Source: Patescibacteria group bacterium
GTDB taxonomy: Bacteria > Patescibacteriota > Saccharimonadia > Saccharimonadales > UBA4665
Direction: 5' to 3'
NCBI GenBank assembly: GCA_030272735.1
Contig: JARXKL010000004.1
Span: 1 to 42,470 of the forward strand
DNA: 42,470 nt
Shown: piece by piece, positions 7,431 to 13,100 of the stretch
Numbering within the stretch: the first letter of the stretch is position 1
Layout: each line of letters opens with the position of its first letter
Notes under the pieces: model-generated
Database searches by the model: none
What the model was told of the DNA's origin: nothing
What the model saw: the letters and a program-made list of their open reading frames with translations, nothing else
Translations under genes and position numbers: made by a program

Positions 7431-10019
7431 CTACTCCGGTTGAGGCGATGTTTTTTTCTGTTTTCGCCGACGTTTTCGTTTGGGTTTAGCAAGCTGAATA
7501 TCTGAACCTTTAACGGCAGCCTTGCCGAGTTTAGCAGATGAAGTTAGGGGTTTTTGAAGCGTTTGCTCATTTTTATTAAGAGAATCGGTTTTTGACTGAA
7601 CAGTTTGATTTTGGGGCGCTGGACTTGGCTTTTCAGCTACCTTTCGTTCCTGCTTTTCATAAACCGCAGATGGTGATTGCTTAGCGTCTAATAAGTAGCG
7701 CCGACTGACGTAACCTTCCACCTCTGTTTTATGCAGCGAATACAGCTTCCTCGAATTATCGATTATGGCGGCTGTTTCATCGAGGTTTTGCTGTGGTAAA
7801 TTGAGTGTCACGGCTGAAAACGCCGGCGTTTTTTCTCCGTTAATGGTCATATTTATGACTATATTTCGGTTATTCATGTGAACGAGGTCGTACTGCTCGA
7901 AATTAGGCTCAAAATACCGCAGCATACTGGTGGCATCGTCGGCGCCCATCCTGAAGGCGATCATCGAGCCCACGTTACCGAATACCGCGTCTTTAACTTC
8001 TACCGACATCTGAGCAATGTACTGGTTAGCAACGGTCAAGTTGAGGGCGTATTTACGGGCTTCGCTCAAAATTGTCGCAAAACTGTCTGTTGCAAAGTTT
8101 TGAAATTCATCGACATATAGATAGAACGGAATGCGTTCTTCCGCTGGAATATCGGCGCGGCTCATGCTGGCTAGCTGTATCTTAGTGACGAGTAATGCGC
8201 CGAGCAGCGAGGCGTTGTCTTCACCGACCAGTCCCCTGCTCAGGTTAACGATCAGGATCTTGCGCTCATCCATTATTTTACGGATATTAAAGCTGCTCTT
8301 GGGCTGGCCGATGATGTTACGCACGATAGGGTTTGCCGTAAAGGCGCCGACCTTGTTGAGTACCGGGGCTACCGCTTCAGCAGCAAATTTGTCGTTCCAG
8401 CTCGCAAATTCGACTTCCCAAAAGTTCCTTACTACTGGATCAGTAACGTACGATAACACTTCTTTGCGGAATTTTTTATCTGTTAAGATGCGCGTTATAT
8501 CCAGCATGGTGGCATCGGGGTATTCAAGCAAGGCTAGCAGGCTGTAGCGCAAAATGTACTCTAAGCGCGGTCCCCATGACTCAAACATACGTTTAAGCAC
8601 CCCTATCAGCTCAGATACGGTATGCGTCCGCAGCTTGGGATCTGAGACTTCCATAGGATTGAAGGCTATGGGGTATTCGGTGTCAGCCGGATTGAAGTAA
8701 ATAACATCTTTGGCACGGGAGGCCGGAATACGGCGCAGGATACTTAGTGCGTAGTCGCCGTGGGGGTCAATAACCGCAAAACCATAGGGACTATAGATAT
8801 CAGATATAGTAAGTAGCTCGAGAAGTCCAGATTTACCGACCCCTGTTTGCCCCAAAATATACAGATGACGACCTCTGTCAGAGCGCGGTAAACCGAATGC
8901 TAGGTTTTTGCCCCTAAAATTTGCGGCAGCTATGGGGCTAATAACATCTTGGTTCTCGTTGGTGGATACCGGTAAATTGGCTGGCGGTTCAGCCGTTTGG
9001 CTGAGGGCCCACAATATGTACGGTGTTTCCACATTAGTATGGGGTAAATGGTAGAGCGTTGCCACTTCTTCAATGTTGAGCACCAGCGGCTTGGCGCCTA
9101 TGCTACGATTGCGATAATGAGTGACGTGTACCTGTTCGCTGCTGAATTTAGCCTGTTCGAAGCCATTCAAGTAAGTAGTATTGAACTGTTTGTAGCTGGC
9201 AACGATTGATTGCAGCCGTAACTGAGCCTGGTTCTGCGGGACATTCCCCTTAAATACAATGCGTAGAGAGGTTTCGTAGGCCAGTTTGTGGCTTTTATCT
9301 TCGGCAGCGCTGGCCCTGGCTTGTTCATATTCGGTGAGTTTTACCGTTTCGCCAGCCTTATACTCCGGTGGCGCCCACAAAGCGCTGACCATACCGGTGC
9401 CTGACGTTCCAGATGAGCTACTGCGCAGGCCACCGATGTATTTTTCGCTCTTTTTATGCCAGTTATCAGATGCCGGCTGCATAACGAGCTGAATCCAGGC
9501 TTCTTCGTCTTCATCGAACTTCGCGAGAGTTGCGGTGATAGCTGCTAAGGGGTCAACTTCGAAACTCTGAAAGGTTTTGATGGGCAGCGCATCATTATTT
9601 ATAAGACGCATTTCGGCTACTAAGGCATTGCCGGACGTGGAATGAACGGCCTGCGAATAGTCTTCCACCTCTGATATCTGGACTGTTGGATATTGTGCGT
9701 AGATTTGTTCTTCGACAAAATCTTTTAGGTAGCGTGGCACGCAGACATAAAAACCAATCCTCTTCTTAAGTACCGCGATTTCGAAGCTGATGCGCACCCG
9801 GCGGGCACCTTGGAAACGCTTCTGCGAAGGAAACATCAGCAGCCCGTGAAGCGACGCGAACATCTGTTCCGCGGCTAATTCTTTCTTTTCATTAGTGCGT
9901 GGCACCTGCAATAACAAGACAACTTTGTCGTCCTGGAGGCTTTGCTGTTCGAGCTTATCGGCGCTTGGTTTTGTAAGACTGTTTAATTTCATAGCTGCGT
10001 ATGTATAACTATAGAGCAA
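7431..10019 (-). CDS. VirD4/TraG-like (DUF87/TraM-recognition) P-loop ATPase
   Basis: 862 residues. Walker A is GQTGVGKS at about 389, followed by the FIDPHGDY-like motif (here VIDPHGDY), and Walker B is YVDEFQNF at about 634, the layout of conjugative coupling ATPases and HerA/FtsK-like proteins. No membrane helix is evident at the N-terminus, so it is a soluble form. The last 40 residues are extremely basic, ending in a Lys/Arg run, and are preceded by a Gln/Ser/Pro linker. A TTG start at 10019 directly follows GGTGAT, which matches the 3' half of a full Shine-Dalgarno; an ATG at 9992 is the alternative. In CPR genomes such proteins accompany type IV pilus or secretion genes, none of which are in this window. 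Role in DNA or protein export is inference. Confidence 0.85.
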   Translation of the reverse strand: MLYSYTYAAMKLNSLTKPSADKLEQQSLQDDKVVLLLQVPRTNEKKELAAEQMFASLHGLLMFPSQKRFQGARRVRISFEIAVLKKRIGFYVCVPRYLKDFVEEQIYAQYPTVQISEVEDYSQAVHSTSGNALVAEMRLINNDALPIKTFQSFEVDPLAAITATLAKFDEDEEAWIQLVMQPASDNWHKKSEKYIGGLRSSSSGTSGTGMVSALWAPPEYKAGETVKLTEYEQARASAAEDKSHKLAYETSLRIVFKGNVPQNQAQLRLQSIVASYKQFNTTYLNGFEQAKFSSEQVHVTHYRNRSIGAKPLVLNIEEVATLYHLPHTNVETPYILWALSQTAEPPANLPVSTNENQDVISPIAAANFRGKNLAFGLPRSDRGRHLYILGQTGVGKSGLLELLTISDIYSPYGFAVIDPHGDYALSILRRIPASRAKDVIYFNPADTEYPIAFNPMEVSDPKLRTHTVSELIGVLKRMFESWGPRLEYILRYSLLALLEYPDATMLDITRILTDKKFRKEVLSYVTDPVVRNFWEVEFASWNDKFAAEAVAPVLNKVGAFTANPIVRNIIGQPKSSFNIRKIMDERKILIVNLSRGLVGEDNASLLGALLVTKIQLASMSRADIPAEERIPFYLYVDEFQNFATDSFATILSEARKYALNLTVANQYIAQMSVEVKDAVFGNVGSMIAFRMGADDATSMLRYFEPNFEQYDLVHMNNRNIVINMTINGEKTPAFSAVTLNLPQQNLDETAAIIDNSRKLYSLHKTEVEGYVSRRYLLDAKQSPSAVYEKQERKVAEKPSPAPQNQTVQSKTDSLNKNEQTLQKPLTSSAKLGKAAVKGSDIQLAKPKRKRRRKQKKTSPQPE

Positions 10020-10056: not shown

Positions 10057-10085
10057 ATTATATTGGCTTTAAGGTGTTTTGTCAA
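10057..10085 (-). promoter_or_regulatory. perfect sigma70-type promoter for the ATPase operon
   Basis: On the minus strand TTGACA (10080-10085) and TATAAT (10057-10062) are separated by exactly 17 bases. Transcription would begin near 10050, giving a short leader before the ATPase start. Confidence 0.85.
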
Positions 10086-10158: not shown

Positions 10159-10187
10159 TTGACATAAGCAGTTTCATATGCTACTAT
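10159..10187 (+). promoter_or_regulatory. sigma70-type promoter for the structured leader and GC-rich gene
   Basis: TTGACA at 10159-10164, 17 bases, then TACTAT at 10182-10187 (an overlapping TATAAT lies 3 bases further on). It is divergent from the ATPase promoter and about 400 bases before the next large gene, so the transcript has an unusually long leader. Confidence 0.8.
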
Positions 10188-10209
10188 AATAGTCATCTCC
10201 AAAGGATAA

Positions 10210-10296
10210 ATGAGGCAGGAGGCAGAAGATGCAAATCTACTTCACCTGAGGGGCGCCATCATTAACAATTTGACTCACATGCTAAGGTGCAAATAA
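10210..10296 (+). CDS. possible 28-residue upstream ORF in the leader
   Basis: ATG at 10210 with AAAGG five bases upstream opens 28 codons ending at TAA inside the first leader hairpin. It overlaps the six-codon ORF in another frame. The product has no recognised similarity. It may be a translated leader peptide or a chance frame; the Shine-Dalgarno position is the only support. Confidence 0.25.
   Translation: MRQEAEDANLLHLRGAIINNLTHMLRCK
10229..10249 (+). CDS. possible six-codon leader peptide (MQIYFT)
   Basis: A strong Shine-Dalgarno AGGAGG (10217-10222) sits exactly six bases before ATG 10229, yet the frame closes at TGA after MQIYFT. Such a good ribosome site on a tiny ORF at the head of a structured leader is typical of attenuation or stalling peptides. 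Function is inferred from position only. Confidence 0.4.
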   Translation: MQIYFT

Positions 10297-10582
10297 ACAT
10301 CGCACCGAAGCAAACTAGATAGTTATGGGTCCTCAAGTCCCGCTTGATTGCTTTCGCAGTCGCGGTAGATTACAGACCCAAAGCCATCAACTATATACAT
10401 TCACTATTCTTTCTCTAAGAATAAACGGTTTACTAGATACAGTTTAGAGAATCTATTGGATGGAACAGCGTTACGAAATACCCTATGTCGTCATACTGTT
10501 CTATCCATATGGAACACTCTTGTAGTATCTAGGCTGATCACCTGGTACTGCGCCATTCAATCACTTCTTAGGAGGTGGTAGC

Positions 10583-11980
10583 ATGATCGCTAGTAATTTG
10601 ATGATCCCGATCGCCTTCTTGGTGATTGGATTGGTCTTCAAGCAGGTCAACAAGTTCACGAAGGACAACAAGGAGATGATGAAGATGCGTAAGCACTTTC
10701 GCAGCATCCTGATCGCGTTCTTCGCGGTCTTGGGCCTCACCGCCAGCACAGCGCCTAACGCGCTCGCAACCAACTCGCATCAGGACCACCGCGGTGCCTG
10801 CGCTCGCTCGACTACGTCGATCAGTAAGGGCCTGTCGGACCTGAAGTACAACGGGGTGCTCGGCAAGTTTGCCAAGCAGTTCGGCATCAAGTCGTTCGAC
10901 GGCAATGTCAGCAAACAGCTGCAGAACCAGCTGGTGGTAGCCAAGGTCGCTCAGGCGGTCTCGACGAACAACAGCGGTTGCGACGGACACGGAAACACCT
11001 TCGGGGCCGGCAAGCGCCAGCTCTACAAGGGCGAGACGGTGGTCGTAAAGGTTCCTGCCAAGTATGGCAAGGACATCTGTCGGTCGAGCCACAAGGGCTG
11101 TCGTGCCGTGAAGATCGTCGTTCACTTCGTCCTTCCGACGTCGTGCTACAACGGTAACACTGGTACGGTGGTCGTCGTCATCTACGTCAAGGTTACCCGG
11201 CCCCCAGCCGCGAATCCGAAGACGAAGACGCCGGCGCAGACGCAGGTCGCGGCTAACAACTGCAAGGCTGGCGAAGTGAAGGACTCCAATGGGGTCTGCA
11301 GCATCCAGCAGCAGCAGGTCGCTGGCGCAGGTAACTGCAACTCGACCAACTCGGGGAATCTCTCCGGGACGGGCGACACGCAGGGAAGCTGCAACCAGAC
11401 GACGGTCGTGTGCAATGGTGCGGGCTCATGCTCCCCTAGCACGACGAATGTCTGCACCAGCAATACCAGTGGTGGTACAGGTACGACGGGTGGAACCGGT
11501 GGCAATGCCTCTTCGGAGACGTGCAACACGACCACCCCGCCGCCGCCGGCCGCGACCGCCAAGTGCGACTCGCTGTCAGTGACGACGAACCCGGCAGTGA
11601 ACCTCGGCGTCCGCGCTGTGGCAAACTACACCACATCTGGTGGCGCGACGTTTACGTCGATGTCAATCAGTTGGGGTGACGGGACCACCAAGGTGTACAA
11701 CGCGTCCAACGCGGACTACATCTACGCGAAGGCGGGCAATTTTGTGGTCAACGCCACGCTCACCTTCTCGTCGCCGTCCGGTGACCTCTCGAGCAACTGC
11801 TCAGCCGTAACGGTAACTCCCAAGGATGGGACCGTAGGGCCTGGCTCCACCACTGGTGGCACGTCAGGTGGCACTGGTTCAGGCGGTACCGCAGGTAGCA
11901 CAACGACGGGGTCAACCTGTCAAGACGCAAACGGGAACATTGTTTCCGGACCGCACGACCAGTACGGTTACTGCGTTTAA
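10583..11980 (+). CDS. GC-rich secreted/anchored protein with PKD-like domain
   Basis: 465 residues. The ATG is preceded by TTAGGAGGTGGTAGC, a near-ideal ribosome site, so the long form with a first hydrophobic helix (about 5-20) is favoured. A second hydrophobic stretch (about 42-58) ends in a signal-peptidase-like site near NALA. The mature part has a cysteine-containing domain, a low-complexity Ser/Thr/Gly/Asn-rich middle with many cysteines, then a PKD-like beta domain (about 335-410) with ISWGDGTT and the Y-x-Y-A/K-AGNFVVNATLTF pattern, and a Gly/Thr-rich tail ending in a Cys-containing motif. By eye the gene is much richer in GC and in TCG, GGC and CTG codons than its neighbours, pointing to transfer or to codon bias from high expression. 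Probably a surface protein; partner unknown. Confidence 0.8.
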   Translation: MIASNLMIPIAFLVIGLVFKQVNKFTKDNKEMMKMRKHFRSILIAFFAVLGLTASTAPNALATNSHQDHRGACARSTTSISKGLSDLKYNGVLGKFAKQFGIKSFDGNVSKQLQNQLVVAKVAQAVSTNNSGCDGHGNTFGAGKRQLYKGETVVVKVPAKYGKDICRSSHKGCRAVKIVVHFVLPTSCYNGNTGTVVVVIYVKVTRPPAANPKTKTPAQTQVAANNCKAGEVKDSNGVCSIQQQQVAGAGNCNSTNSGNLSGTGDTQGSCNQTTVVCNGAGSCSPSTTNVCTSNTSGGTGTTGGTGGNASSETCNTTTPPPPAATAKCDSLSVTTNPAVNLGVRAVANYTTSGGATFTSMSISWGDGTTKVYNASNADYIYAKAGNFVVNATLTFSSPSGDLSSNCSAVTVTPKDGTVGPGSTTGGTSGGTGSGGTAGSTTTGSTCQDANGNIVSGPHDQYGYCV

Positions 11981-12042
11981 CGCAACCTGCTGATCGGCAA
12001 ACCCACTATCTTTCCGAAAGGAAGGTGATGACTATACGTTGA

Positions 12043-12134
12043 TGGTGCGCGTGAGTGTGGAGGTGGTTTGAAAACTGATTGAGCTTACGCTCCTTTTTTC
12101 AAACCCCTTCACCTCACGCTTCACCATTTTTCTT
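12043..12134 (+). terminator. very long imperfect hairpin terminator
   Basis: Left arm 12043-12074 and right arm 12096-12126 pair over about 26 positions with a few bulges; the inner ten pairs (GGTTTGAAAA/TTTTCAAACC) are perfect. A small GAGC-TTAC-GCTC hairpin followed by six T sits in the loop, and the outer stem is followed by TTTTTCTT. It lies about 60 bases after the GC-rich gene. Confidence 0.7.
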
Positions 12135-12175
12135 GAGGAACAATATCTATCTAGTTTGCACATTGAACAATATAC

Positions 12176-12236: not shown

Positions 12237-13100
12237 ATGAAAATTAAATCATTAGCAATTGGCCTAACCACCGTTGCCCTGACTGCAGTAGCACCTGCAG
12301 CTACGGTATTCGCGGGTTACGCTCCATCAACTCGTGCTACATTCACCTGTAACACCCCGACAGATTGCCCGGGCGCAAACTATGTAACGTTTAACTCGTT
12401 CACAAATGCACCTAATTACGGCGACGAACGCGCTTTCTTTGACGTCAAAGATGCTGCAAACACTGCTTCAGGCGGTTACGCAGACTCAATGACCGTAAAA
12501 GATGGTCAAAAAATTACAATGCGTGTCTATGTACACAACAACGCGAACCCAAATGCAATCGGCGAAGCTAACGCTACAGCCAAGAACACTAAGGTTCAAG
12601 TTCAGTTGCCTACAAGCAAAAAGACCAGTAACACTACTGCAGCAGATATCTCTGCTGATAACGCAATTCCAGGTGAGATCAGCGATACAGCTGACCTAAA
12701 TGGCGCACAGCCATTTACCGTTGTTTTCGATAAAACAGCACCAGTTACAGTAACCTACCGTCCTAATGGTACCGGTGAGTTTGTAACTCGTACGCTTCCA
12801 GGTGCAGCTTTCGCTAGCGATAGCACCTTAAATGCAAGCCTCGGTGATATGAAGGGATGCTTCAACTATGCATCTATCATCACGGTCACTGCGATCGTAC
12901 ACATGGATGCAACTCCAGTGCCACCAGTTACACCTCCAGTGGTTACTCCACCAGCTGTAACTAAGGCTAAGCCAACAGTAGCTGCTCCTACCACCTTGCC
13001 TAACACTGGCGCTGGTGATGTAGCTGCAATCGCTGCTGGTGCAGGACTTGCTGGTAGCTTCGGTTACCGTCGCTTCCTCAGCCGTCGCCTCGCTAAGTAA
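12237..13100 (+). CDS. LPNTG-anchored cell-surface protein
   Basis: 287 residues from the ATG at 12237, chosen because AAGGAG lies ten bases upstream; a longer frame to 12156 would read through the promoter. Residues 1-25 are a signal peptide ending near VFAG. A beta-rich body with a Thr/Asn-rich surface follows, then a proline linker (PVPPVTPPVVTPP), and a classical sortase sorting signal: LPNTG at 254-258, a hydrophobic alanine/glycine helix, and a basic tail (RRFLSRRLAK). A sortase would cut between T and G and link it to the wall or another protein. Promoter, ribosome site and codon use all suggest high expression. No sortase gene is in this window. Confidence 0.85.
   Translation: MKIKSLAIGLTTVALTAVAPAATVFAGYAPSTRATFTCNTPTDCPGANYVTFNSFTNAPNYGDERAFFDVKDAANTASGGYADSMTVKDGQKITMRVYVHNNANPNAIGEANATAKNTKVQVQLPTSKKTSNTTAADISADNAIPGEISDTADLNGAQPFTVVFDKTAPVTVTYRPNGTGEFVTRTLPGAAFASDSTLNASLGDMKGCFNYASIITVTAIVHMDATPVPPVTPPVVTPPAVTKAKPTVAAPTTLPNTGAGDVAAIAAGAGLAGSFGYRRFLSRRLAK

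Follow-up and report, generated by a model that had tools for sequence, protein, structure and literature searches.

What kind of RNA is the leader at positions 10194-10582, and what does it do for the gene that follows? The window, meaning the whole 42,470-nucleotide stretch of DNA analysed here, comes from a member of the Patescibacteria (Saccharimonadales; UBA4665; assembly GCA_030272735.1, contig JARXKL010000004.1, positions 1 to 42,470, forward strand). We find that 10194-10582 is the front half of an unusual Saccharibacteria mRNA. The reading we favor, at a probability of about 0.6, is that this mRNA is built on the plan of a pre-rRNA, with boxA antitermination, a leader-trailer helix and a compact folded body, around a gene for a secreted protein (gene1). 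The architecture (the likeness to boxA, the paired arms, pairing in the sense RNA and a folded coding region) is observed with high confidence, and from it we infer function. Because no rRNA is enclosed, the transcript falls outside the rRNA family; it would work like one.

The elements that an earlier note had picked out of the leader are all present: a consensus promoter, an AGGAGG (10217-10222) six nucleotides ahead of a tiny ORF encoding MQIYFT (10229-10249), an overlapping 28-codon ORF (10210-10296), four or more hairpins, and a closing ribosome site, AGGAGGTGG, before the gene1 ATG at 10583. The leader folds beyond chance, with a z score of -6.3 and none of 100 shuffles folding as strongly. 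The proposed pseudoknot survives as complementarity between 10433-10440 and 10525-10532; in the minimum-energy fold, however, this stem encloses a nested hairpin and no pseudoknot forms. Of the supposed competition of two GGAACA copies for one TGTTC, the sequences themselves are found, at 10462, 10511 and 10497, respectively; relatives' leaders carry other hairpins in the stretch matching 10433-10532.

A DNA search of relatives returned matches limited to a short core, about 10312-10363, which in two genomes lay directly ahead of a secreted-protein gene. Used as a search pattern, this core occurs as convergent pairs 1.4-2.3 kb apart; in the window, 10310-10337 has an inverted partner at 12132-12159, 1.8 kb downstream and beyond gene1. 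The features of the window locus are these:

10159-10187, + strand: promoter of the gene1-gene2 transcript, TTGACA-17-TACTAT with TG before the -10
10194-10309, + strand: outer leader, a structured segment, then boxA, then a spacer hairpin; probable start near 10194
10261-10270, + strand: boxA-like motif ATTAACAATT
10310-10337, + strand: 5' strand of helix 1, GCAAACTAGATAGTTATGGGTCCTCAAG, pairing with 12132-12159, with covariation and sense-only G.U changes
10326-10380, + strand: competing local hairpin, TGGGTC (10326-10331) with GACCCA (10375-10380), from sequence
10383-10395, + strand: 5' strand of helix 2 (box 2, GCCATCAACTATA), pairing with 12033-12046 in the whole-transcript fold
10433-10532, + strand: hairpin closed by CTAGATAC (10433-10440) and GTATCTAG (10525-10532) in the minimum-energy fold
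10583-11980, + strand: gene1, encoding a variable secreted protein of 465 aa, with GC3 77% and a structure z of -3.0 for the coding RNA relative to synonymous shuffles
12033-12046, + strand: 3' strand of helix 2, from the whole-transcript fold of the window
12132-12159, + strand: 3' strand of helix 1, CTTGAGGAACAATATCTATCTAGTTTGC, inverted partner of 10310-10337
12237-13100, + strand: gene2, a secreted protein of a family common to all loci, with a C-terminal LPNTG sorting motif

The earlier note had suggested looking for homologous leaders in Saccharibacteria, and the same layout is seen in 29 loci with an arm pair, 28 on a single contig and one joined from two contigs. The order is promoter, structured leader, boxA-like motif, 5' arm with its local hairpin, box 2, gene1, 3' arm, gene2. 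The arms always flank one secreted-protein gene, and a second gene, usually ending in an LPXTG sorting motif, starts about 40-80 nt after the 3' arm. Most relatives with upstream sequence, including locus L058, have a TTGACA-type promoter about 150-240 nt 5' of the 5' arm. Across 84,980 species scanned, the exact core turned up in 25 stretches, and no stretch was assigned to any other named group; relatives from the genome-wide scan are Candidatus Saccharibacteria or Saccharimonadales/Saccharimonadia, apart from two named just "bacterium". In outline, then, the idea of a new regulatory RNA class ahead of a surface-protein gene stands: 29 loci, covariation, absence from Rfam, and a position before a secreted-protein gene. 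Since the loci were gathered by the arm pattern, high conservation of arm sequence is partly built in; the 29 loci are related and hence statistically not independent, and their ORF starts were called mechanically.

Across loci the 5' arm follows the motif GCAAACTAGATAGTYATGGG and the 3' arm is its inverted copy. In the 29 arm pairs, 487 of 493 cells are paired; shuffled partners gave at most 482, and none of 5,000 shuffles reached 487. An independent count found 97.9% of cells paired, 11 two-sided changes and a covariation score of 0.189, each matched by 0 of 500 shuffles and far above every slid-frame control. When the whole transcript, about 2 kb, is folded at minimum energy, helix 1 forms in all 28 loci, and 27 of these show 14 or more of its 17 pairs. 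Helix 2 forms as well in the whole-transcript fold of the window; relatives share its box 2 as CCRACTACY, but its partners were picked for complementarity, which biases their statistics. For the competing local hairpin, a permissive pattern picks out a CCCA- or CCCAT-like complement ahead of box 2 in 25 of 28 loci.

Long-range pairing of 5' and 3' regions, with a local hairpin competing for one strand, might instead control translation in the manner of icaR or hok, the closing helix and leader fold silencing gene1 until RNase III cleavage or refolding, and boxA playing a secondary part. An RNase III gene is present, and icaR offers a precedent, its mRNA showing 5'UTR-3'UTR pairing with RNase III cleavage (PMC3868564). 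However, the arms lie about 120-310 nt from the gene1 start codon in most loci, so that the helix does not overlap the ribosome site, and this explanation leaves both boxA and the structure selection across the whole coding region without a cause. We regard it as unlikely.

Tested against shuffles that keep both the protein and the codon set, the gene1 coding sequence folds with a mean z of -5.6 and is negative in 28 of 28 loci, compared with a mean of -0.74 for 36 flanking genes (p 3e-11) and -0.5 for armless gene1 paralogues. The excess is greater in sense than in antisense in 25 of 28 loci and is spread along the gene. GC3 of gene1 between arms ranges from 43 to 93% (mean 77), against 27 to 53% (mean 40) for the armless paralogues, a small control set of six paralogous gene1-gene2 operons, one in the window's own genome. 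The gene1 coding sequence is selected to fold, through high GC3 and synonymous choices. In one close pair of loci, L089 and L118, the only such pair compared, substitutions in the coding region do not clearly preserve pairs, and compensatory changes there are not clearly seen. The window genome's own armless operon, L078 (G000:C2, about 44757-47187), has a GC3 of 42% and no structure excess, and serves as a natural control. Gene2 in arm-bearing loci shows a weaker effect than gene1 (mean z -2.5, negative in 27 of 27).

Such a fold, strong on the sense strand and in marked excess over flanking genes (-5.6 versus -0.7), within a closed domain and next to an rRNA-like boxA, could also mean that the gene1 transcript serves as a scaffold, a particle or a sponge for Nus or ribosome factors besides encoding its protein. 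The protein is, however, clearly under selection, with a dN/dS of 0.21 in the closest gene1 pair, and no conserved RNA core emerged inside the ORF; a dual function of this kind strikes us as distinctly improbable.

With their near-palindromic core, AACTA-GA-TAGTT, the arms form inverted repeats around a variable and GC-distinct gene1, as would be expected of recombinase or transposase sites if a variable surface gene sat on a DNA cassette able to invert or move. Against this, gene1 and gene2 point the same way, gene1 first, in every locus checked, and no inverted copies were seen; arm pairs are nearly always one per genome; and the GC excess falls on third codon positions of gene1 to a greater degree than on the UTRs that the arms enclose. 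Among 17 distinct arm pairs, 16 one-sided changes leave a G.U in the sense RNA, compared with one that does so in the antisense (p 0.0003). Double-stranded DNA sites should show no strand bias, so this asymmetry speaks against pairing at the DNA level and indicates that it acts in the transcript. The 5' end of the 5' arm is also complementary to an upstream TAGTTTG, which could add to the asymmetry there, but five U.G at one pair arise from changes on the 3'-arm side and cannot be accounted for in this way. We consider a DNA-level origin of the arms very improbable and have rejected it.

A riboswitch or attenuator confined to 10194-10582 has in its favor the strong fold and the length of the leader, but it is hardly credible, for the clearest conserved pairing partner lies past gene1 and what the earlier note called typical of such elements is not supported: neither a leader peptide shared among relatives nor anything resembling an aptamer core was found. 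An ATG preceded by a ribosome site opens an upstream ORF in just one of 27 relatives' leaders; the tiny ORF is therefore not conserved, and we rejected it as a leader peptide. As to a terminator/antiterminator pair, no terminator-like site was listed in the window leader. The earlier note's failure to recognize an Rfam family was borne out: at gathering and loose thresholds the window leader gave no family, only chance matches of microRNA- or lncRNA-like type, and a search of the window with ten relatives matched no family to the leader and found only tRNAs. Consensus folding of the relatives' aligned leaders yielded no structure because leader lengths differ too much. That gene1's GC3 and folding reflect codon adaptation or foreign DNA only, with the arms as ordinary processing hairpins, is equally hard to credit, since expression or transfer can raise GC3 but the structure excess was measured against same-codon shuffles, the neighboring pgk has a genome-like GC3, and armless gene1 paralogues show neither feature.

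Two things are conserved in the leader, the boxA-like motif and a single arm of the gene-spanning helix, and they point instead to rRNA-style antitermination and a leader-trailer architecture. A site with at most one mismatch to TTTAACAATT occurs in 15 of 28 leaders, against 0.3 expected, and with at most two mismatches in 24 of 28, against 3.3 expected; in a few leaders boxA is more than two mismatches off. Genome G153 has the same 14-mer, GTTTAACAATTTAG, in both its mRNA leader and its 23S rRNA leader, and a similar motif, CTTTAACAATTGAG, is found in the 16S leader of another genome. Genes for NusB and for RNase III (rnc) were both found in all seven genomes tested. In each of the seven the two genes are close neighbors, no more than about 2 kb apart, as at G000:C17:6556-8300 in the window's own genome.

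On the pre-rRNA plan, the strong promoter would give a two-gene transcript whose leader carries the boxA-like site. NusB and ribosomal protein S10 (NusE) would bind boxA and modify RNA polymerase as on rRNA, enabling it to complete the long structured transcript and reach gene2. The 5' arm would first fold into its local hairpin; once the 3' arm emerged, some 1.4-2.3 kb later, the two would pair in a leader-trailer helix of 25-28 nt, joined by the second short helix, and these closing helices would hold gene1 in a compact domain. The closing helix is probably a substrate for RNase III, whose cut would split a stable gene1 mRNA from gene2. Co-transcription of gene1 and gene2 is assumed, since a loose match to a promoter of gene2's own, directly after the 3' arm, was seen in only two of the first 18 loci, the window and L060; the weak promoter-like match between the 3' arm and gene2 in the window counts against it. 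The most likely role would be full-length transcription and protection of an abundant surface-protein message, with RNase III parting gene1 from gene2. A bolder and tentative proposal, which we would not expect to hold though it merits attention, is that this class of mRNA has taken over the rRNA assembly line, with the rRNA antitermination complex, leader-trailer closure and a compact rRNA-like coding fold, for an RNA function of its own or for a long-lived surface-protein message.

Pre-16S rRNA offers a close parallel: its leader and trailer form a helix of 25-40 bp, and the boxC strand of this helix hardly varies but still covaries through exchanges between Watson-Crick and wobble pairs (PMC10250234). 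As in the boxB/boxA/boxC arrangement of E. coli (PMC10250234), boxA in the leader is followed by the 5' helix strand, near-invariant and covarying by wobble exchange, with the 3' strand beyond a strongly folded body of about 1.5 kb; here, in contrast, the helix encloses a protein-coding ORF, with a second gene after it. The arm word AACTAGATAGT occurs exactly in the 16S stem of one genome, and words in the range of AAYTNRRTAGT in many, while apart from this the arms and the 16S stems within these genomes differ in sequence; the word is short, and its kinship with the 16S stem is only suggestive. Protein-coding genes with a boxA in their 5' UTR are known from suhB, where the Nus complex represses, and from other boxA-regulated mRNAs, although these have no described leader-trailer helix or structured coding region (PMC5725501). 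With icaR (PMC3868564) and hok mRNAs the transcript shares intramolecular pairing of its two ends, a possible refolding and, probably, RNase III as its nuclease; there, however, the pairing is between a short motif and the ribosome site, whereas here a helix of about 25 nt lies outside it, encloses the whole gene and is accompanied by boxA. A globally folded coding sequence recalls RNA viruses with genome-scale ordered RNA structure (PMC3765861); here, by contrast, it belongs to a single gene on a bacterial chromosome, and the armless paralogues of that gene lack it. BoxA on mRNAs (PMC5725501) and mRNA end pairing (PMC3868564) are known separately; a limited literature search, of partial coverage, found no precedent joining both with a folded coding region in one mRNA.

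If the favored reading is true, this is a bacterial message on a pre-rRNA plan that is selected to fold over its whole length, and it occurs in epibionts with tiny genomes whose surface proteins matter in host contact. It makes testable the notion that cells use antitermination and leader-trailer helices generally to make and protect folded RNAs, including mRNAs, with the armless paralogues, one within the window's own genome, as natural controls.

Three further observations were made along the way. A perfect TTGACA-17-TATAAT promoter at 10057-10085 of the window, on the minus strand, serves a divergent gene (7431-10019) for a HerA/TraG-like ATPase. Locus L053 encodes, at 7640-9214 on the minus strand, a 524-aa protein that by eye resembles a large serine recombinase and was not seen beside the other loci. 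The 23S rRNA matches of L098, L099 and L106 (genomes G090, G065 and G153) span 3160, 3527 and 3715 bases, respectively, against a model of 2925, which suggests insertions or introns.
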